Shown piece by piece: positions 22,061-58,010 of a stretch of DNA of 64,000 nt. This stretch comes from Alteromonadaceae bacterium Bs31 (GTDB taxonomy: Bacteria; Pseudomonadota; Gammaproteobacteria; Pseudomonadales; Cellvibrionaceae): NCBI GenBank assembly GCA_900177435.1, contig FXAI01000001.1:539663-603662 (forward strand), written 5' to 3'. Within the stretch, counting starts at the first letter, position 1. Each line of letters starts with the position of its first letter. The translations under genes and the position numbers were made by a program. The notes below the pieces were generated by a model. That model was not told the DNA's origin. It saw only the letters and a list, made by a program, of their open reading frames with translations, and searched no databases.

Positions 22061-23715
22061 TTACCCTGTAGCGCTGGTTTTTTTTGAGGTACGTTTTGTT
22101 GGTTTGCTGGCTTTTCTCTTCTTAAACCTCTTGCCGCCAGGCCTTGTTTTTATGCCTTTTAGCGCTGTAGGCAAAACGCTTTGGCTTTGCTCGATAAGTT
22201 CCCGTAGGCTTTTTTCCAAGGGCTCCATAAATGTTGTGTAGTTGGCTTGTTTTTGGCTGATTGCATTTAGTGATGCCTCCCACTGTGCGGTCATGTCGGG
22301 TAATGTTGCACTGTGGGGCAGACTGGCGACCAGGCCTCGGGCTGCTTCGCTTGAGCGGATTTGCTTACCTTGGCGAACGAGAAAGCCGCGCTTAAACAAT
22401 AAGTCTAATATTCCCGCGCGTGTAGCCTCTGTACCCAAACCGTCGGTCTCTTTTAGAATTTTTCGAATGCTTTCATCATTTACATAGCTGGAGATGCCGG
22501 TCATCGCCGCTAGCAAGCTGGCATCGGTAAAATACTTCGGTGGCTGGGTATTTTTTTCCAGAAGTTCTCCTTTTAGGCAGTGCAGGGTATCGCCTTTTTG
22601 CAGTGCCGGTAGATCAACAGCGCTAAATTCATCGTCGCTGGTAGCGTTTGAATTACTGTCCGAATTTTGCTTTCGTTCAAACAGTATCTTCCAGCCCGCT
22701 TTAACCGTGACACGCGCCTTGGCAAGAAATAAACCGCCTGCAATAAGCACTTCAATGGTGGTATCCCTGTATTCCCACTTGGGGTAAAACTGTGCGAGGT
22801 ATTGGCGTGCTATCAGTTCGTAAATGTCAATTTCCTGCTTGCTCAGGCGGGAGAAGTCTGCTTTTTTTAGGGTGGGGATAATTGCGTGGTGCGCATCTAC
22901 TTTATTGTTATTCCAGGCTCTCGATTTAATGCTGGGCTGGGCCGCCCTGGCAGCGTCGGCTAAGGATGCGCTATTGGCGGAAATGGTAGCGAGTATTTGG
23001 CTTGCCTGTGTGTGATGCTCTACTGGTAAATACCGGCTATCGGAACGCGGATAAGTAATGAGCTGATGGCGTTCGTACAGCGCTTGGCAAATCTCTAGCG
23101 TTTGCTTAGGGCTGTAAGCGAAGCGTTTTGCCGCATCAATTTGTAGCGATGACAGGTTATAAGGCAGCCCCGCGGCGCTGCTCTTGTTCACCGCTGTAAT
23201 CGCCTTAACACATGCTGGTGCATCGGTTATACGGGTAATAACGTTATTGGCTAGGGCTTTGTTTAATACCCTGCCTTCGCTGTCCATATAGGCTTGGCAG
23301 GCCTCACTGGGTTGCCAGCGCGCACTAAACTGTTCTCCGGTATTGGTGCGCAAGTGCGCCAGCACTTGATAAAAAGGCTTGGATACAAAAGCCTCTATCT
23401 CTTGGTCGCGCCGTACTACCAAGCCTAAAATCGGCGTTTGCACTCGGCCTACTGAAAGCAAACCCTGGTAGCCCACCTTTTGCCCCTGCAGGGTGTAGGC
23501 ACGGGTCATATTAATACCGTATAGCCAGTCTGCTCGGGAGCGAGCTAAAGCGGATGTGGACAAGGCTGCGAATTCACTATTTGGGCGCAACTGGCTTAAT
23601 GCTCGGCGCACGGCGGCGGTGTTCATATCACTAATAAGGCAGCGTTGAATAGATGCACGTTTGGAGCGGCTTACGCCCAAAAAGTCGATAAGCTGATCAA
23701 CCAATAACTGGCCTT
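22061..23715 (-). pseudogene. topB: DNA topoisomerase III, host gene, 3' part (split by the island)
   Basis: This is the C-terminal 551 codons of the host topoisomerase III, from the Glu-Gly of DPDREG to the stop. It contains the toroid and active-site domains with the catalytic Tyr in LITYPRSDSRYLP, the ETDGLGTEATRAGI segment, and a Lys/Arg-rich tail. Codons up to DPDR lie 34 kb away at 57692-58010. Joining 57692 to 23715 gives one frame of 657 codons with no shift or stop. The frame stays open into the island up to ATG 23818, which has GAGAGAGAT upstream, so a chimeric protein of about 585 residues lacking the first half of the TOPRIM domain could be made. It would not be a normal topoisomerase. 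Confidence 0.93.
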
Positions 23716-23731
23716 CTCTATCACTGTTACA
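23716..23731. repeat. Left attachment site: spacer CTCTAT plus end repeat CACTGTTACA
   Basis: Read on the minus strand, this is TGTAACAGTG-ATAGAG followed by host AAGGCCAG. The spacer still codes for Asp-Arg (GAT AGA G) although it differs from the host spacer, as if copied from another topB. Confidence 0.75.
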
Positions 23732-50116: not shown

Positions 50117-52063
50117 TCAGTTTTCCTTCACTTTGTTTCTCCGCCTCTTCCCTTGAGCCAACTTCCGCTTTACTTGGCCTTGAGCACCTTTACCAGCTAA
50201 ACCATCAAAACGAACTTGGCTGACCTCCTCAATGAGACAGCTCAACGTACTTACCATTGGCATCATAAAGTGATCGTAGCGAAGCTCACGCTGGCTTATC
50301 GCTTCCAGCTGAGATTCCCATTGCGCAGTCATATCCGGCGTTGCAACACACATAGGGAGCCCTTGAATCAGCTCTCTACCTATATCTGTTGATCGAATCT
50401 CTTTGCCTTGACGTGTTAGAAAGCTACGCTTGAACAAAAGCTCAATGATTCCAGCTCTAGTGGCCTCTGTACCTATACCGTCAGTTTCCCGAAGAACCTT
50501 TCGGATTTCTGGGTCTGTCACGTAGCGGGATATACCGGTCATTGCGGATAATAATGATGCGTCATTGAATCGTTTTGGCGGCGAAGTATTCTTGTCAAGA
50601 ACTGAAGCTTCAATGCACATTACTGGATCACCTGTTTTTAAGTCAGGCATTCTATCTTGGCAATAGTCGTCCTCCTCTTTTTCATTGCTTTTGGCATTAG
50701 CATTTTTAAATAAGGCGCTTTTCCATCCTTCTGCGCTAACCTCTTTTCGCTTTGTGATAAATAGGCCTCCTTCGATAACCGAGTCAACCTGTACCTGCCG
50801 GAAATCGAAGCTTGGTAAAAACTGCATGAGATATTGCCTAGCAACGAGGTTATAGACCTTCGACTCAGTTGCGGTCAATGCTGCTCCTATTTTTTTATGG
50901 GTTGGGATAATCGCATGGTGTGCGTTTACTTTTTTATCATTCCATGCCTTCGACTTTCTCTGAGTGTCGGTAGCATTGGCGATAGACACTAGACTTTCAT
51001 CTACCGAGGATATTGCAGTGATAATTTGATTAGCTTCATTAAAATGCTCTGCAGGAAGATACCGATTATCCGACCGAGGATATGTAATTAATTTATGTTT
51101 TTCGTAAAGGCTTTGACAGGTATCCAATACCTGTTTAGCACTAAGGCCAAATATCTTGGCTGCATCTATTTGTAATGATGAAAGATTGTAAGGTAAAGGT
51201 GGGGCTTGTTTTTTCACTGTATCGGAAAAATTTTTAATCTTACCCGTTTTATTGTTCACCCGTAATAAAACGTTTTCAATGAGCTTGCGAGATAACACTC
51301 GATTCTCTTCATCCATATAAGGCTGACATGCTTCGCTAGGTTTCCATTTTGCTTTAAAGCTAAACCCTTGCTCCGTAGTTAAGCGTACCTCTAGCTCATA
51401 AAAGGGCTTGGAAATAAAGCTTTCAATTTCTAAATCACGCCTAACGACCAAACCCAAAAGCGGTGTTTGCACTCGCCCGATAGATAACACACCGCTAAAC
51501 CCAGACTGCTGGCCTCGCAAGGTGCAAAGGCGGGTCATATTCATCCCATAAAGCCAATCCGCTCTTGCACGTGCCAGTGCGGAAGTCGCCAAAGGGATGA
51601 AATCTGTATTGTTACGGAGATTAGCCAAAGATTTTTTAACTGAAGCGGGATTCAAATCACTAATTAAGCAGCGCTTGGCAGCTGCAATTTTTGATTTTGA
51701 TACACCACAAAAACTAATCACCTCATCAATTAAAAGTTGGCCCTCTCGATCTGGATCACCTATATTTACCAATAAGCTCGCACTTTTTATAAGCTTCTTC
51801 AAAACATTAAACTGCTTTCGGGTTTGTGGTTTAACATCCAACTTCCACAACTCTGGCACAATGGGTAGATGATCAGAATTCCACTTTTTGTAGTCTGGAT
51901 TGTATGCATCTGGTTCCGCTTGCTCCAACAAATGACCAATGCACCAACTGACAACATCACCATTTCCCACCTCGATAAATCCATCACCATTCCGGTGAGG
52001 TTTTGGAAGTACTTGAGCAACAGCGCGCCCTAGGCTAGGTTTTTCAGCGATATACAGAATCAT
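50117..52063 (-). CDS. topB: DNA topoisomerase III carried by the island
   Basis: This is a complete 648-residue type IA topoisomerase. The TOPRIM domain has [12 protein letters not shown] at the start and NIGDPDREGQLLIDE near 100-114; the active-site Tyr is in LITYPRSDNRYLP near 325; DGIGTEATRAGIIELLFKR follows; and the tail is Lys/Arg-rich. It is clearly a homologue of the disrupted host gene but not its copy: many residues differ. Its ATG overlaps the ginD stop (ATGA) and GAGAGG lies 5-10 bases upstream, so it is made as the fifth product of the recombinase operon. It would replace the host enzyme lost by insertion, or serve the recombination reaction itself. Confidence 0.94.
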   Translation of the reverse strand: MILYIAEKPSLGRAVAQVLPKPHRNGDGFIEVGNGDVVSWCIGHLLEQAEPDAYNPDYKKWNSDHLPIVPELWKLDVKPQTRKQFNVLKKLIKSASLLVNIGDPDREGQLLIDEVISFCGVSKSKIAAAKRCLISDLNPASVKKSLANLRNNTDFIPLATSALARARADWLYGMNMTRLCTLRGQQSGFSGVLSIGRVQTPLLGLVVRRDLEIESFISKPFYELEVRLTTEQGFSFKAKWKPSEACQPYMDEENRVLSRKLIENVLLRVNNKTGKIKNFSDTVKKQAPPLPYNLSSLQIDAAKIFGLSAKQVLDTCQSLYEKHKLITYPRSDNRYLPAEHFNEANQIITAISSVDESLVSIANATDTQRKSKAWNDKKVNAHHAIIPTHKKIGAALTATESKVYNLVARQYLMQFLPSFDFRQVQVDSVIEGGLFITKRKEVSAEGWKSALFKNANAKSNEKEEDDYCQDRMPDLKTGDPVMCIEASVLDKNTSPPKRFNDASLLSAMTGISRYVTDPEIRKVLRETDGIGTEATRAGIIELLFKRSFLTRQGKEIRSTDIGRELIQGLPMCVATPDMTAQWESQLEAISQRELRYDHFMMPMVSTLSCLIEEVSQVRFDGLAGKGAQGQVKRKLAQGKRRRNKVKEN

Positions 52064-52521
52064 TTCTGCCTCTCAGAGATTTTTGTTATTTTGGTTGCAG
52101 ACAACTCTTTTTCCAATTGCTCAATTGCAATCAAGGCTTCATGCAACGAAAAATGTAATTTTGCATTTTCTTGTATAACACCATCCGCAAATCGCTTTAT
52201 GTTATCGCGCTGCTCTCTATAGCGTTCTTTTAGCTGTTTTTGTTTGTCACGCTCAGCCCTAAGCTTTGCGATATCGCTTTTGCTAACTGAATAATTATTC
52301 GTGTTCGTTTTCGACTTTATTTCCGAAATGACAGCCCTTGCTCTAACCACAAAGTCCTTATAGTAGTAAATACTGCCAGAACTCAAACCAGCTTCATCAT
52401 TTATTCTTTTTAAACTAATCTTTCCATCCGGCTTAGTTCTTTCGGGCTTTCCTTCAACCAGCCTTTCTATGGCATGCTCTAATCTTGCCTCTGTGACCAG
52501 CCTTTTGTTATTTTCTTTCAT
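52060..52521 (-). CDS. ginD: GinD/TnpC-type small coiled-coil protein (DUF6262-like)
   Basis: This 153-residue basic protein has a helix-turn-helix-like N-terminal part (LKRINDEAGLSSGSIYYYK at 37-55) and a long coiled coil from about 80 to 145 (AKLRAERDKQKQLKERYREQ and onward). It matches the small fourth gene of GInt islands and TnpC of Tn554, which is needed for efficient or directional recombination. It starts 2 bases after the ginC stop and overlaps topB by 4 bases. Confidence 0.75.
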   Translation of the reverse strand: MKENNKRLVTEARLEHAIERLVEGKPERTKPDGKISLKRINDEAGLSSGSIYYYKDFVVRARAVISEIKSKTNTNNYSVSKSDIAKLRAERDKQKQLKERYREQRDNIKRFADGVIQENAKLHFSLHEALIAIEQLEKELSATKITKISERQK

Positions 52522-52523
52522 GA

Positions 52524-54440
52524 TTATTTGCTCTGCAACATTGAAGCCGTTAGGTTTTCGCTGAAGGGAGAGTAATCGATATTATGGTCATCCAAAGATT
52601 GATCAATAGATTTAATATCGAAATATATTTTGGACATTATATTAGGTTGATTAACATTCCAGTCTCTTAATGCGTTGAACTTGGCAACCAACTGCTCTCT
52701 AACAGGCAATAAAGAAAGCGCTTTCTCTTTAGTGACAATTTTGTACCTACAGGTTTGCATATCACAAATGCGGCTACATGTAGGATTAGTGCAATGTCCA
52801 AATGGATTTTCAGTAATAGACATTTGCCCATTTTTCACTTGCGTTGATATTTCTTCTCTACTCAAATAGATGCTCGCGTCAACACCTCTACGAGCCGACA
52901 TAATTCGGTCTCCTTCCTTACCAGAAAGAGAGGAGGCTTCGTTGTATATATAGTAGAGCGTATCTGTCATGAAACTGTGATTTTCTTCAGCTATCAAATC
53001 CATTAACTCCGCATCCATAGTCATATCAAGATGGGCGGCAATATTTGCTTGATTTGAATACCAAGCCGTCATCGCTATATTTATATGCTTAAATTGATAT
53101 TTGAGGTCTAACAGAGAACCGAGTTTGTTTCTCACAAGAAACACTGCAAAGGTTCTTCTAAATCCGTGTGGATGAGGGATAAGCACCTGGCCTTGAGCTA
53201 GCTCACCTTTCCTTGTTGGATTGAGCACATTGAATTCTTCAACATCGGAAAATGTGGCCACACAACCAACGGATTTGGCAAATGAAGCTAATGATTTACT
53301 TATTGTTTGACGCCCTGCAAAAGGCCTTACTGAAGTTGTGTAAGGAAGTAAAATAAACAATGAATTTATATCTTCCAAGAACTTTTTACGTAAGTCCATA
53401 TGAATAATGCTTTCGGCATCTTCTTTCCATATTTCTCTTGCAAACTCAAATGAACACCAAAGAAGCTCTATTGCCTTTTTGGTTTTTTGATTTGTCACCC
53501 AAGAAGTTTCTCGCTTTACACCACCAACATTTGGTTTGGTATGACCACCGCTTACAATAGAAATCACTACATCCCCATACTTTTCTTCCATATATGAATC
53601 TAAGTTGAAAGATTTTATTTCGCTGTCTCTACTTCCAGTAAAGCTTGCTATCAGTGTATAGCAGGCACCTCTGAGCCAGCTAAGCCATACCCCGGACAAG
53701 TCCAGAGAAAAATCTTCATGAGGTATGTCGTGAAATGTCATTTTCCTTGCCTTTTTAAGAGGCATGGTCCTATCTCGATAATGCTTTTGTAATTCTTGAA
53801 AATTTTTAACAAATTCGCCATAAGCTTTACTAATATCAAATCGATACGGGTAAAACCGATCAACAATGTCCATGCTTGACTTTATGTATTCAGCAGCAAT
53901 TTTTTCGGGTATAGCCATTGATTGCTTGGTTACCGCGCTCAAGCTAGACAACTCCCTTGCTAATATATCTGAATTTTCAATCCTTCGTTCAACCAGCCCA
54001 TTTTCGTATAGTTTGGATAGTAATATAAGGTTATTTTTCCATGTTTTGTATTTGATTTTTAGCGTCTTACCGTAACTTATAATTTGACGAAGCCCAGAGT
54101 CAGAATCTATAAATCGAAAACTTTCTCCGCCGAGATGCTGAATCATTTTCTGAAAAAATATCGCCGCTTCGATCCAGTTGTGAGAATAAGTATACTTACT
54201 AAGTATTAATTTTTTATCAATTACCACTTTATAAATAATCTGTTTAATCGCATCCTTAAAACCACCATGCAATCTATGGAATTTTACTTGTGAGTCTCGA
54301 TCAACAAATACCCATAGGTCGTCCTGATAGTAGCTGTATGGGGTACCTTGGGAGCAAAATGATACAATCGGATTTTCGTCGGGAATGAAAGTGTTCGTGC
54401 TCTCTTTTAACGGAAACTGTTTACCTGACCGAAGACGCAT
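52524..54440 (-). CDS. ginC: Tyrosine recombinase GinC (third of three)
   Basis: This 638-residue phage-integrase-type recombinase has its catalytic signature in the last third: Arg in SFTGSRDSEIKSF, His-x-x-Arg in PHPHGFRRTFAVF, and His...Tyr in QFKHINIAMTAWYSN. It also has a C-terminal Cys knot (CTNPTCSRICDMQTCRYK). ATG 54440 is chosen over GTG 54446 because it forms TGATG with the ginB stop and has GGGAGG 7 bases upstream. It is one of a trio needed together for GInt integration and excision. Confidence 0.82.
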   Translation of the reverse strand: MRLRSGKQFPLKESTNTFIPDENPIVSFCSQGTPYSYYQDDLWVFVDRDSQVKFHRLHGGFKDAIKQIIYKVVIDKKLILSKYTYSHNWIEAAIFFQKMIQHLGGESFRFIDSDSGLRQIISYGKTLKIKYKTWKNNLILLSKLYENGLVERRIENSDILARELSSLSAVTKQSMAIPEKIAAEYIKSSMDIVDRFYPYRFDISKAYGEFVKNFQELQKHYRDRTMPLKKARKMTFHDIPHEDFSLDLSGVWLSWLRGACYTLIASFTGSRDSEIKSFNLDSYMEEKYGDVVISIVSGGHTKPNVGGVKRETSWVTNQKTKKAIELLWCSFEFAREIWKEDAESIIHMDLRKKFLEDINSLFILLPYTTSVRPFAGRQTISKSLASFAKSVGCVATFSDVEEFNVLNPTRKGELAQGQVLIPHPHGFRRTFAVFLVRNKLGSLLDLKYQFKHINIAMTAWYSNQANIAAHLDMTMDAELMDLIAEENHSFMTDTLYYIYNEASSLSGKEGDRIMSARRGVDASIYLSREEISTQVKNGQMSITENPFGHCTNPTCSRICDMQTCRYKIVTKEKALSLLPVREQLVAKFNALRDWNVNQPNIMSKIYFDIKSIDQSLDDHNIDYSPFSENLTASMLQSK

Positions 54441-56254
54441 CACCACACCTCCCTTAACAAATCAAAGTCATCTTCACTAGACCACAGCGGGTGAGGTGCA
54501 TCCATGTAGCGTTTCATCGCTGAACTGTACACATCTATAAACTCGTCTTGAAGCCGAGATAAAATTGATTCAACAGTGGCTGCAACCTTTATTAAAATGT
54601 CTCCTGGCATGCTATTTATAGATGGGCGACTCATCACGCCCAATAAAACATCTCTAAACGATAACATTAGCCAAACATCTTCTATCTCAGCGATGATTGC
54701 GTGATTATCACAGCCAAAACACTCAAGGAATTTGTGACAAGCAACACTTTCATGATCACTTGCTAGCTTTGCATCAATTAATGAGTTTTTTAAAGCCTTC
54801 GCTTTTTCGCCAAAAGGGGCTGTGCATCTAATTCCGCTAGGTGACAAAGTAGGAATATTGGCAGTCGTCTTTGGGTAGGCGCTTTTCCGGATGGGATCTC
54901 TATAACTAAATACAGAATTCTCCTTAGCATCAGAAACTGACTCTCCTTGAGCAGTTCGCTCCCTAATATCGAGAACTGCAGCTAAAGCCATTTTAGACTG
55001 TACTGGATTTCCATCGGAGTAATGCCGAGCCACTGTTTCTGGGTTATTATTTAGACCTTCTGCGGTTGAGAAAATACTATCAGTAGCTCGAAAAATTATG
55101 GATGCTTTAGTTTTTCTAAATTTTTGGTTACTAAGCCTTGGCAACCCTAGAGCCTGAAAACTGTGATTTAGACCACCATAAATGGACACTCCATCTTGTC
55201 GGTAACACTTCCCATTAACAACTCTAGGAAAAAGAATCGCAGTTTCAGAGGAATCAAGTATTCTTGCCATGTAAACCCATGATTCAACAAAATCTTTCGC
55301 CCTTTTTGTAAACCCTATTTCGTCTAGGTTTTGACGACCCTTTTGCCGATTCTTGGTCGTAATAAGAATATACTTCCCTCTAGACGATTCAATGAAATCC
55401 CCACCGGTAATGTCGAGGACTTTTAATTCGGACAATTGCCCGTGATTAATTCCGGTGAAAAAGCACATTAAGTAATAAGCTGAACGCACCAAATCCATCT
55501 TCCATGTATCTATATTATTTTTTGTCGATATTTTTTTTCTCCATCTACTTCGAAGAAAACCAATTGATGGTGCGGACTTTAAAAGCTTATCTTCGTCATA
55601 TAGTGGAAAGTTTTCGGGTGTACTACCTTCTAATAAATGTTTCCCGTAAGCAGAATAAATCTTATAGAGATTTTTAACGATCTGCTTAACTTCTAGATCT
55701 GTATAAGGGGTAACGGGAGTAGTGTCATTTGGGAATTGAAAAAATACATTTTTTGCCTCCAAATCATTAAACAAATTAATTTCTTTGGTGATAACCTTTA
55801 CGGCGTTCTGTATTCCTTGTAAAGACTTCCCTTTGCCTCCTTTCATATATCGATTTTTAAGCTCGTCCACAAATAGCTCAACTGCATTTTTAGACAGTAT
55901 ATCCTCGACTGAATTTTGGTCACATACTTGTATTAACACAACCAACCCGTTAAATATATTTAATTTTGTCCGAGGAGTTCTATCCAAATTCACTATTGTT
56001 TGATACATCTCAATAACGAACGGCCATCTCCCCATATCAACGAGAACTTCATTCCCCCTGAATTCTGCACTATTCGTACCATTCCCAGCTTTAAGATTTG
56101 GACAGTTATGGTAACCGAGTCGCTTGAAATGTACGGTGCTATTACCATTGGTTAAAGTCAGATTTTTTACTGAAATGGGCGTTACTATCGCAATATTTTC
56201 AGATGTGGGATCCGATATTTTTCTCGTCTTTTTTCCCTTAAAGGCCACTATCAA
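54440..56254 (-). CDS. ginB: Tyrosine recombinase GinB, catalytically degenerate (second of three)
   Basis: This is a 604-residue phage-integrase-type protein. The canonical TG-x-R is FTGINHGQLSEL (Arg replaced by Asn), and the His-x-x-Arg box reads QKFRKTKAS (His replaced by Gln), while a Tyr is kept in ETVARHYSDG. It may therefore act as a structural partner and not as a strand-cleaving subunit. The start is TTG 56254 overlapping the ginA TGA, or GTG 56248. A C-terminal Cys/His cluster (ACHKFLECFGCDNH) could bind zinc. Position and overlaps put it firmly in the gin operon. Confidence 0.8.
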   Translation of the reverse strand: MIVAFKGKKTRKISDPTSENIAIVTPISVKNLTLTNGNSTVHFKRLGYHNCPNLKAGNGTNSAEFRGNEVLVDMGRWPFVIEMYQTIVNLDRTPRTKLNIFNGLVVLIQVCDQNSVEDILSKNAVELFVDELKNRYMKGGKGKSLQGIQNAVKVITKEINLFNDLEAKNVFFQFPNDTTPVTPYTDLEVKQIVKNLYKIYSAYGKHLLEGSTPENFPLYDEDKLLKSAPSIGFLRSRWRKKISTKNNIDTWKMDLVRSAYYLMCFFTGINHGQLSELKVLDITGGDFIESSRGKYILITTKNRQKGRQNLDEIGFTKRAKDFVESWVYMARILDSSETAILFPRVVNGKCYRQDGVSIYGGLNHSFQALGLPRLSNQKFRKTKASIIFRATDSIFSTAEGLNNNPETVARHYSDGNPVQSKMALAAVLDIRERTAQGESVSDAKENSVFSYRDPIRKSAYPKTTANIPTLSPSGIRCTAPFGEKAKALKNSLIDAKLASDHESVACHKFLECFGCDNHAIIAEIEDVWLMLSFRDVLLGVMSRPSINSMPGDILIKVAATVESILSRLQDEFIDVYSSAMKRYMDAPHPLWSSEDDFDLLREVW

Positions 56255-57627
56255 TCACTCCCTATCAACGAGGAAAAATCGTCTCCAATTAACTGCTCAA
56301 TGGCATTCTCGTAGATTTCGTTTGCAACAGGACTAACTGTACAAAACTTCAAATATGCCAACAGTGTCGCACGGTGCTTATGACCCATAGTCGCCTGAAG
56401 ATAATCAAGGGCATCACCTTCTTTTAAACTATTATTTAATAGTATCTTGAGCCTTGAAACTGCGTATGTTGCTCTAAGATTGTGAAATTTATGATCAAAT
56501 TGTTGGCTTGTTTTACGAGCGGAGTTTCTAATTTCTCCCCAGCGGGCATCCAACGTTTTACCCGTATAAAAAGTGCCTCTTTGCGCTATAAATAGCGGTG
56601 GATTAGCAGCTTCATTTGGGTTGTTTTTTTCAAACTTCTCTCGCCTTTTTATATACCGATTTGAATTAGTATATCTGTGAAGAGCAAGCATTAATGCGCT
56701 GGGGAGCTCGATTGTCCGTCCCCCGGAACCTTTAGTATCGACCCCTAATTCAGGAGCAATATAAACCCCCTCAGTGTCGACGAGATATTTTTTAGTAAGC
56801 TGAGCTTCTGATGGCTTGAATACAAGTCGAGCACGGAAGGTTACAAGCTCTTGTCTCCTCATCCCTGTATACCTAGCTAAGGCAACAATCAATTTGAATT
56901 CTATAGATATAGGCACCTGAAGCTCGAAACCAGAACTTTTTTGAATGGCTGTCCCATCGACCCGATAAATTCTGTCGACTAAATTCCACTCCTCTTCACT
57001 CAAAGGGATTAAACGGCGAGACACATTTCCGAAGGTTGTACTTTTTGGAAGATCAAGCCTCAAGTCTGAAGTATCTACATAGATATGGCTGTTGCGCATA
57101 CTTTCGTGACCGCCTTCCCGCTTTACCTTAACCACTTCGTATTTGAAAGGGGCATTTTCAAACTTGTATCCTTTAGCCAAATAAAACTTATAGAAATTGA
57201 CTACAACACCAATGTAGTTTTTCGCTGTGGACCTTGCGATTTTTCCTGACAGACATGCATCTTTAAGGTGTTTTCTAAATTGATAAGTCGGGCGGTTTCT
57301 CAGAGCAATAGGCATTACGTCCCAGCTCATTCCTTTGCCACGTAAAAAGCTGTAATAGTGTAATAGGGCTTGGGCTTGAGTGTTGACTTGTTTACGTTGC
57401 CGGTTAGCTTTTAAATGAATCAACCAGTTGTTAACTTCCCAAACAGGGATTCCACTCTCACAGTATAAAAGTGGGATATTTTGATATACGTTTCCCGTTC
57501 CAGACCAATTTAGATTGACCTCTCCCGTATCGTTATCAATATCAAACCGTGGTGATTGATCAATTTTTAAGCTTGGCAAATCCCAAAGAATGTAATCCAC
57601 TGTCAGCCTCGTCAACTTTTTACACAT
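56251..57627 (-). CDS. ginA: Tyrosine recombinase GinA (first of three)
   Basis: This 458-residue integrase has the complete catalytic set: Arg 257 in YTGMRRQEL, His 382 and Arg 385 in FHNLRATYA, His 416 in MGHKHRAT and Tyr 425 in TLLAYLKF. The N-terminal 170 residues form the core-binding SAM-like domain. The ATG lies 20 bases after the stop of the truncated host TopB frame, so the gin operon sits directly behind the host topB promoter. Together with GinB, GinC and GinD it should catalyse integration at topB. Confidence 0.85.
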   Translation of the reverse strand: MCKKLTRLTVDYILWDLPSLKIDQSPRFDIDNDTGEVNLNWSGTGNVYQNIPLLYCESGIPVWEVNNWLIHLKANRQRKQVNTQAQALLHYYSFLRGKGMSWDVMPIALRNRPTYQFRKHLKDACLSGKIARSTAKNYIGVVVNFYKFYLAKGYKFENAPFKYEVVKVKREGGHESMRNSHIYVDTSDLRLDLPKSTTFGNVSRRLIPLSEEEWNLVDRIYRVDGTAIQKSSGFELQVPISIEFKLIVALARYTGMRRQELVTFRARLVFKPSEAQLTKKYLVDTEGVYIAPELGVDTKGSGGRTIELPSALMLALHRYTNSNRYIKRREKFEKNNPNEAANPPLFIAQRGTFYTGKTLDARWGEIRNSARKTSQQFDHKFHNLRATYAVSRLKILLNNSLKEGDALDYLQATMGHKHRATLLAYLKFCTVSPVANEIYENAIEQLIGDDFSSLIGSD

Positions 57628-57681
57628 ATTTTCACATTTTCATGCTTTTATACATGTAATATGTGCGTTTCATGGAAAAAG

Positions 57682-57697
57682 TGTAACAGTGCGCGAT
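57682..57697. repeat. Right attachment site: end repeat TGTAACAGTG plus spacer CGCGAT
   Basis: Read on the minus strand, this is host ACCCCG-ATCGCG-CACTGTTACA. The spacer ATCGCG is the original host sequence, since it restores GAT CGC GAA when joined to 23715. Confidence 0.75.
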
Positions 57698-58010
57698 CGG
57701 GGTCGCCTGCATGTATGAGGGTATCGGCCGCCTTTACCCACTTACGCAGTACACCCAGCTGTTTTTGGGTGCTGGCTTTCGGCTGTAATTGCCATTGCCG
57801 GGGGATAATTGGCAAGTGCTCCATACGCCAAGGCTTAAAAGCACTGTCGTAGGTCTCTGGCTCGGCCTGCTCCAGTAAATGACCGATGCACCAGCTCACC
57901 ACATCCCCATTGCCTGCCCGGATAAAGCCTTCCCCCCGCTGGTGGGGTTTAGGTAGCGCCTCGGCAATAGCGCGACCAAGGCTGGGTTTTTCGGCGATAT
58001 AAAGTTTCAT
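57692..58010 (-). pseudogene. topB: DNA topoisomerase III, host gene, 5' part
   Basis: This is the first 106 codons of the host top[21 protein letters not shown] at the start (TOPRIM Glu), [15 protein letters not shown], and LIHAGDPDR at the break. Past the junction the frame runs 14 codons into the island ([14 protein letters not shown]) and stops at 57648. The 120-residue product lacks the catalytic Tyr and cannot act. Its promoter now drives the island operon. The rest of the gene is at 22061-23715. Confidence 0.93.

Follow-up and report, generated by a model that had tools for sequence, protein, structure and literature searches.

A site-specific ginABCD island that interrupts host topB and probably replaces it with a divergent, recoded copy

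We analysed a stretch of 64,000 nucleotides from Alteromonadaceae bacterium Bs31 (assembly GCA_900177435.1, contig FXAI01000001.1, positions 539,663 to 603,662; hereafter the window), in which a genomic island with the four-gene module ginABCD lies inside topB, the host gene of topoisomerase III. Most likely, this site-specific island of the GInt type breaks host topB and supplies a divergent topB as a substitute, the island copy being recoded at the target of insertion. In the window, the island interrupts a gene and brings along a complete, divergent version of the same gene. An earlier note on this DNA had proposed that the element destroys the host gene and provides a replacement, in agreement with the split host topB and the complete island copy, which recur in all 11 distinct elements described below.

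The island and the interrupted host topB

The island measures 33,970 bp (23722-57691), wider than the span given in the earlier note, and cuts host topB between codons 106 and 107 (GDPDR|EG), adjoining the catalytic DxD motif. Its main features, in the order in which the minus strand is read, are:

57693-58010, minus strand: 5′ fragment of host topB, codons 1-106, with GDPDR at its end
57692-57697, minus strand: 6-bp attL spacer ATCGCG
57683-57691, minus strand: left terminal inverted repeat CACTGTTAC, 9 bp, island end at 57691
56251-57627, minus strand: ginA, tyrosine recombinase of 458 amino acids (aa), by PF00589 (E = 6.5e-07) and synteny
54440-56254, minus strand: ginB, 604 aa, no Pfam match
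52524-54446, minus strand: ginC, 640 aa, PF00589 below its cut-off
52060-52521, minus strand: ginD, small protein of 153 aa, no Pfam match
50117-52063, minus strand: island topB, complete topoisomerase III of 648 aa, fifth gene after ginABCD
51737-51757, minus strand: codons 103-109 of island topB (DPDREGQ), counterpart of the target, with GAG and not GAA as codon 107
23722-23730, minus strand: right terminal inverted repeat GTAACAGTG, 9 bp, island end at 23722
23716-23721, minus strand: 6-bp attR spacer ATAGAG
22061-23715, minus strand: host topB, 3′ fragment, codon 107 onwards, about 550 aa

The open frame of the 5′ fragment continues into the island, to 57648, and the remainder of the split gene, attR spacer included, spans 23721-22061. 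The 5′ fragment is 92% identical to TopB of the congener G402, whose target site is empty (GACCCCGATAGAGAAGGCCAA), as is that of E. coli K-12 (GACCCGGATCGTGAAGGGCAA). A topB profile search of the own genome returned the island copy, the two host pieces and one place below the cut-off, which is presumably topA. An AT-rich stretch, read by eye, precedes the right island end. Since exchange over a 6-bp spacer preserves the reading frame, excision would leave host topB in frame.

The four gin genes stand in order, with neighbours overlapping or 2 nt apart; PF00589 exceeds its cut-off in ginA only, and ginB and ginD lack it altogether. Collinear homologues of these genes are present in other modules.

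Island TopB consists of Toprim and Topoisom_bac domains, scores 839.6 bits on NF005829 (cut-off 597) and retains E7, DPD103-105 and the Tyr of YPRSD, which we take to be its functional residues. Its identity to host TopB is 63% over the 5′ piece (106 aa) and 53% over the 3′ piece (553 aa). In line with the earlier note on this 648-aa gene, its start and the ginD stop share 4 nt (ATGA), and it has its own Shine-Dalgarno site, GAGAGG, which ends 5 nt upstream of the ATG. The layout suggests that ginABCD-topB forms one transcript. Island topB is under purifying selection: of 12 pairs compared, eight have a ratio of nonsynonymous to synonymous substitution (dN/dS) of 0.036-0.054 (dS 0.13-0.49), and the other four are saturated and yield no value.

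Recurrence of the island in topB of distant hosts

The ginABCD-topB island recurs in distant hosts: in total, 13 genomes with 11 distinct elements were found, the window included. A scan of genome contigs with a three-row GinC alignment gave 10 loci, and at eight of these (two in Photobacterium, three in Pantoea, one each in Tatumella, Pseudoalteromonas and Halomonas) topB directly follows ginD; GinC is there 49-56% identical to that of the window. By common classification, Photobacterium, Pantoea, Tatumella and Halomonas represent several orders. In the same eight genomes, host topB is in two pieces, 5′ (profile positions 1-108) and 3′ (starting near position 104), and a full copy is present in addition; two of them hold an extra, unlike full TopB (L115, L116). 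Among 390 genomes of the order, GinB gave six matches (the window, G128 and G332 clear, three weak), and G128 has the same arrangement. Finally, Pantoea ginC-ginD DNA was matched in 3 of 5426 E. coli genomes, where the islands lie in topB between selD and ynjI, each with its own topB, and are near identical except for an insertion sequence (IS).

In all 11 distinct elements, topB stands directly behind ginD (4-nt overlap in eight, 1-nt overlap in two, 8-nt gap in one) and the host-topB junctions fall at the same codon, 106/107. In 10 of the 13 genomes, one contig holds the host 5′ piece, ginA-ginD and topB. In Halomonas and P. anthophila, ginC-ginD-topB and the left junction, which includes ginA, fall on separate contigs, and in Pseudoalteromonas the left junction was joined to the module through two contig ends that overlap identically. 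All 13 genomes have the right junction in topB; in Pseudoalteromonas and P. anthophila it and island topB are on different contigs. This constancy upholds the assignment of topB to the mobility module and not to the cargo, made in the earlier note from the window. That note had named ginABCD-topB elements inserted elsewhere than in topB as its refutation; every one of the 11 found lies in host topB. The reading of topB as random cargo is rejected, because position and target are constant across the elements.

Two further observations concern individual copies. In two of the three E. coli copies the IS3-family element ISEc52 lies between ginC and the annotated ginD (L123 19884-21052, and L124). 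In Photobacterium iliopiscarium (G390, L107 2030-7130) two island right ends enclose a C-terminal topB piece (residues 396-626), probably left over from a previous insertion at this site.

The target codon is altered in the island copies

The GAAGG half of the target at codon 107 is missing from all 11 island topB copies. Among DPDR-type TopBs, host 3′ fragments apart and L117, which lacks the motif, uncounted, codon 107 is GAA in 15/15 genes outside ginABCD islands (these include one on the G100 element described below and one G100 host fragment) and in 0/11 island copies, which have GTC (5), GTT (4), AAT (1) or GAG (1). At the protein level, Glu is found in 17/17 TopBs outside ginABCD islands, three of them DADR-type, and the island proteins have Val (9), Asn (1) or Glu (1). 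The last is that of the window, where the change from GAA to GAG is synonymous. At attR, the host flank retains AAGG in all elements except that of Halomonas (10 of 11), where it reads AGGG. This pattern suggests that loss of the target half-site protects the island copy from self-insertion. According to a review that bears in part on the residues named above, the acidic residues conserved in the topoisomerase are one Glu and both Asp residues of DxD (PMC10969213); therefore, the change at codon 107 need not abolish catalysis.

The mechanism that we propose would run as follows. The attachment site is the highly conserved topB sequence for DPDR|EG, which would give the island entry into topB of many hosts, and its insertion would break host topoisomerase III. 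The fifth gene, a full and divergent topB, would then replace the broken enzyme, since it is co-oriented and downstream of the host topB promoter. As an intact target inside the island would attract self-insertion, the recoded codon may keep the substitute safe. Co-expression, translational coupling, functional replacement and immunity are what we infer here from sequence.

Phylogeny of TopB and exchange of alleles

The TopB tree was built from 38 rows covering the part of TopB after the target, with the Pseudoalteromonas 3′ fragment used from after its in-frame stop; the E. coli island copy and intact relatives of Pantoea, Tatumella and Photobacterium are not among the rows, and the placement of the long branches, namely G400, L117 and the fragments of Halomonas and Pseudoalteromonas, is uncertain. 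In this tree the island label does not form one clade (three changes). Eight island TopBs, from Photobacterium, Pseudoalteromonas, Halomonas, Pantoea and Tatumella, form one clade (support 100/97), and the window island TopB is sister to a chromosomal topB of G405 (100/100), both joining the eight (100/99). The window host fragment is sister to topB of congener G402 (100/97), and the host fragments of G128 and G100 group with their own family. An origin of the window island topB as a copy of its own host gene is rejected on this placement.

The topB of G405 (L119+L120, C1:5381456-5383297) is 80% identical to the window island TopB. It is set apart in the tree from the topBs of other family members, and no gin match was found in the 40 kb read. 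Possibly, it was left behind by an island, or it represents the source of the window allele.

Island TopB of G128 is a mosaic. Overall it is 90.6% identical to the whole host 3′ fragment; residues 151-450 match this fragment at 46-50 positions in each block of 50, residues 101-150, altered codon included, at only 26 of 48, and residues 1-106 match the host 5′ piece at 81 of 106. This indicates that recombination with the host replaced the island gene from about residue 150, while the altered target codon stayed. The earlier note had argued from divergence that the island copy did not arise from its host. For the window the tree supports this origin from elsewhere; the argument itself is not valid for every member, because the part of G128 TopB from about residue 150 is host-derived.

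In a tree of the gin genes (13 rows, without P. anthophila, the Halomonas row joined from two contigs, stops within matched stretches appearing as X), the 10 topB-carrying rows are united (100/100). It matches the TopB grouping for the seven elements shared with the clade of eight, with the exception of Tatumella: Tatumella and Pantoea topB are near-identical, while their gin genes differ more. Therefore, topB alleles move between elements.

Comparison with known elements

Target replacement has precedents, of which topB is a variant. Like the GInts described by Bardaji 2017 (PMC5385486), the island has putative recombinase genes and a small protein at its 5′ end, cargo, and an AT-rich 3′ end, and it shares with them site specificity and short imperfect att repeats, here the attL and attR of 11 elements. 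GInts, as published, occupy intergenic positions or the ends of genes (ssb, ABC transporter) (PMC5385486), whereas here the island enters topB at its catalytic codons and brings a probable replacement of the target as its fifth gene; the words topB and topoisomerase do not occur in the main text of that paper, as far as accessible. No paper on a GInt with topB, or on an island in topB, was recognised in a search outside which most subscription literature falls.

SE-6283 (Tn6283) inserts into bcp and carries a bcp homologue, for which its authors consider possible compensation and a likeness to the element RME (PMC5991714, PMC9345347). In the pSEA1 record (L161 93-7112) this bcp is the fifth gene, on the same strand and 114 nt after a four-gene module, the genes of which we named from their order in the papers; in the accessible parts of both papers we did not find this fifth-gene parallel stated. 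The topB island resembles SE-6283 in the four-gene module followed by a same-strand, diverged copy of the target gene, in a probable 6-bp spacer exchange and in entering E. coli; it differs in that target and replacement are there bcp, with no overlap with the fourth gene. Matches between the modules are weak and partial (ginA-IntA 22.6%, ginB-Tfp 29% over 103 aa, ginC-IntB 21%, ginD-Srap 25.7%; E-values computed for a 5-protein set). The Bcp carried by SE-6283 has Gln where K-12 Bcp has Cys (QAQGLRD against QACGLRD).

RME of Vibrio cholerae likewise inserts site-specifically inside a DNA-metabolism gene, recA, and carries a divergent intact recA, for which its authors propose the same rationale (PMC4405046). 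Unlike the topB island, it has other integrase genes, and its recA lies at the end opposite the integrase. The newest additions made here are the lost target half-site in every island copy read and the fifth-gene layout in other element classes.

Weighing the evidence

Several observations weigh against substitution by a protected topB. First, E. coli topB mutants are reported to grow normally (PMC6160223), four of seven congeners have no TopB above the family cut-off, and in E. coli CFIAFB20180511 (L146) phage tail genes adjoin a cut topB, with no second topB in the 17.5 kb read; loss of topB is therefore survivable. Second, the window island TopB is closest to the chromosomal topB of G405, which has no gin genes in 40 kb, and so the topB slot can be refilled from chromosomes, or chromosomes from the slot. 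Third, SEs are described as leaving a 6-bp footprint in attR (PMC10214605). Such a footprint fits the E. coli copies, with attL spacer ATCGTG as in K-12 and attR spacer ATGATG. Across the 11 elements, attL and attR have identical spacers in five and different ones in six, and in the window it is at attR, not at attL, that the spacer agrees with the empty site of G402. Fourth, judged from the tree, the codon-107 changes amount to at least three events (the window, G128 and the Val clade), not 11. Finally, a Halomonas host whose flank has GAG at codon 107 was still entered by the island, and so the GAA-to-GAG change of the window alone may not block insertion. On balance, the benefit of a substitute probably lies in fitness and genome stability, survival being possible without it.

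The Halomonas case would also suit an alternative, somewhat unlikely in our judgement, in which the codon-107 changes are adaptations of the enzyme and give no protection from self-insertion; the residue two after DxD becomes Val or Asn in 10 of 11 island proteins, as this would have it. It accounts poorly for the window, where the codon alone is altered and the protein stays the same, and for the exact coincidence of the altered place with the attachment site.

As regards topB in E. coli, the K-12 gene was matched in 5375 of 5426 genomes, in a listing with five more places than records, of which the three islands and H88 were inspected. The five best E. coli records for the 3′ part of topB (H24-H28) have IS1 inside the matched stretch. 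In the genus of the window's host, topB is patchy.

Another explanation, already raised in the earlier note, is that island TopB serves the recombination of the element by resolving or decatenating a circular or replicative intermediate: since integration destroys the host enzyme, the element would have to bring its own topoisomerase III to leave. The overlap of topB with the last recombination gene in 10 of 11 elements is consistent with this, as is the strand-biased copy-out by which the related SEs are proposed to move (PMC10214605). We nevertheless find it quite unlikely. More distant matches to GinC or GinB were examined at 23 loci, some of which coincide, and none shows a topB match; among them are five distinct modules with a recognisable ginD (L022, L125, L126, L148 and L149, of which L148 and L149 reach only about 1.1 kb past ginD). 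The two remaining loci of the 10 in the GinC scan, in a metagenome-assembled genome (MAG) of Oleispira (GinC 32%) and one of Rhodocyclaceae (GinC 23%), have no topB match either. All four gin genes are reported as essential for GInt recombination (PMC5385486), in a setting where host topB was presumably intact. Moreover, the fifth gene of SE-6283 is the peroxiredoxin gene bcp, which has no obvious role in recombination; substitution is therefore favoured.

Another element that cuts topB and carries its own copy

G100, which is related to G128, has its host topB interrupted at a different place, GRVQ|TP at about codon 199, by an element (L100 6406-15828, L101 about 1250-2700) that also carries a complete topB of its own. 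Behind the cut lie genes for a 778-aa protein (no Pfam match), three pieces resembling one broken gene, and genes for a 173-aa protein and a 460-aa integrase (PF00589), as well as topB. An 11-bp repeat, TTGACACAAAA, is inverted at both junctions, which we assign to one insertion although the right junction is on another contig. Neither ginABCD (best E 0.01) nor SE-6283 is matched significantly by the proteins of the element, and its topB groups with Photobacterium host topB (100/100). Among 381 genomes, the integrase gave nine matches, with G274 (37%) ranking next after G100 itself; G274 has parts of the module and no topB match in the 20 kb read. The 778-aa protein was matched in 0 of 369 genomes of the class, a draw that had no positive control.

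The G100 element also bears on the idea of a single capture of topB as ordinary cargo that has since persisted by hitch-hiking. Exchangeability of island topB (the G128 mosaic, the near-identical Tatumella and Pantoea genes, the G405-like window allele) would accord with it. Yet the position of topB is fixed in 11/11 elements while the window and the E. coli copies have different cargo, the low dN/dS speaks for constraint, and the carried gene is the broken gene, likewise in the unlike G100 element; we regard such hitch-hiking as highly improbable.

Taken together, ginABCD-topB, SE-6283-bcp and G100 lead us to raise, as a serious possibility short of an expectation, that multi-recombinase islands follow a general design, with a recoded, insertion-proof substitute for the broken gene fixed as the fifth gene after the recombination module. 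If true, it would free islands to use conserved catalytic codons of housekeeping genes as broad-host-range sites, and would explain how they land in the most conserved part of such a gene without loss of function, in several orders including E. coli. One layout would link element classes, and the fifth gene would predict an island's target gene. The codon change allows a direct genetic test of self-immunity. With the topoisomerase gene swapped by islands, topB would be a poor marker in affected lineages.

Distribution of the module and cargo of the island

Beyond the lineage, the window gin proteins are homologous to modules on two plasmids and in the Oleispira MAG (27-40%). Pantoea GinC gave five matches among 369 genomes of the class (the window strong, four weak) and a 7-row GinC profile gave 11 among 398 genomes of the phylum (the window and 10 distant ones); the draws from order, class and phylum may overlap. 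Carriage of this lineage by phages or plasmids was considered and rejected: window GinC has no match in the phage collection, viral contigs gave no relative, and the 197 plasmid records that match window GinC are all below 60% identity, the 20 listed lying at 25.7-29.0%.

The cargo of the window island occupies the following region:

26723-49442, minus strand: DISARM-like anti-phage set, ResIII-type helicase and unassigned genes

The DISARM-like genes are DrmMII/MTase_II, a DrmD/DrmA-type helicase, DrmMI, DrmA, DrmB and DrmC, with PDC-S39 and NERD-helicase genes interspersed. Anti-phage cargo, DISARM-like here, would sit behind the proposed topoisomerase swap.

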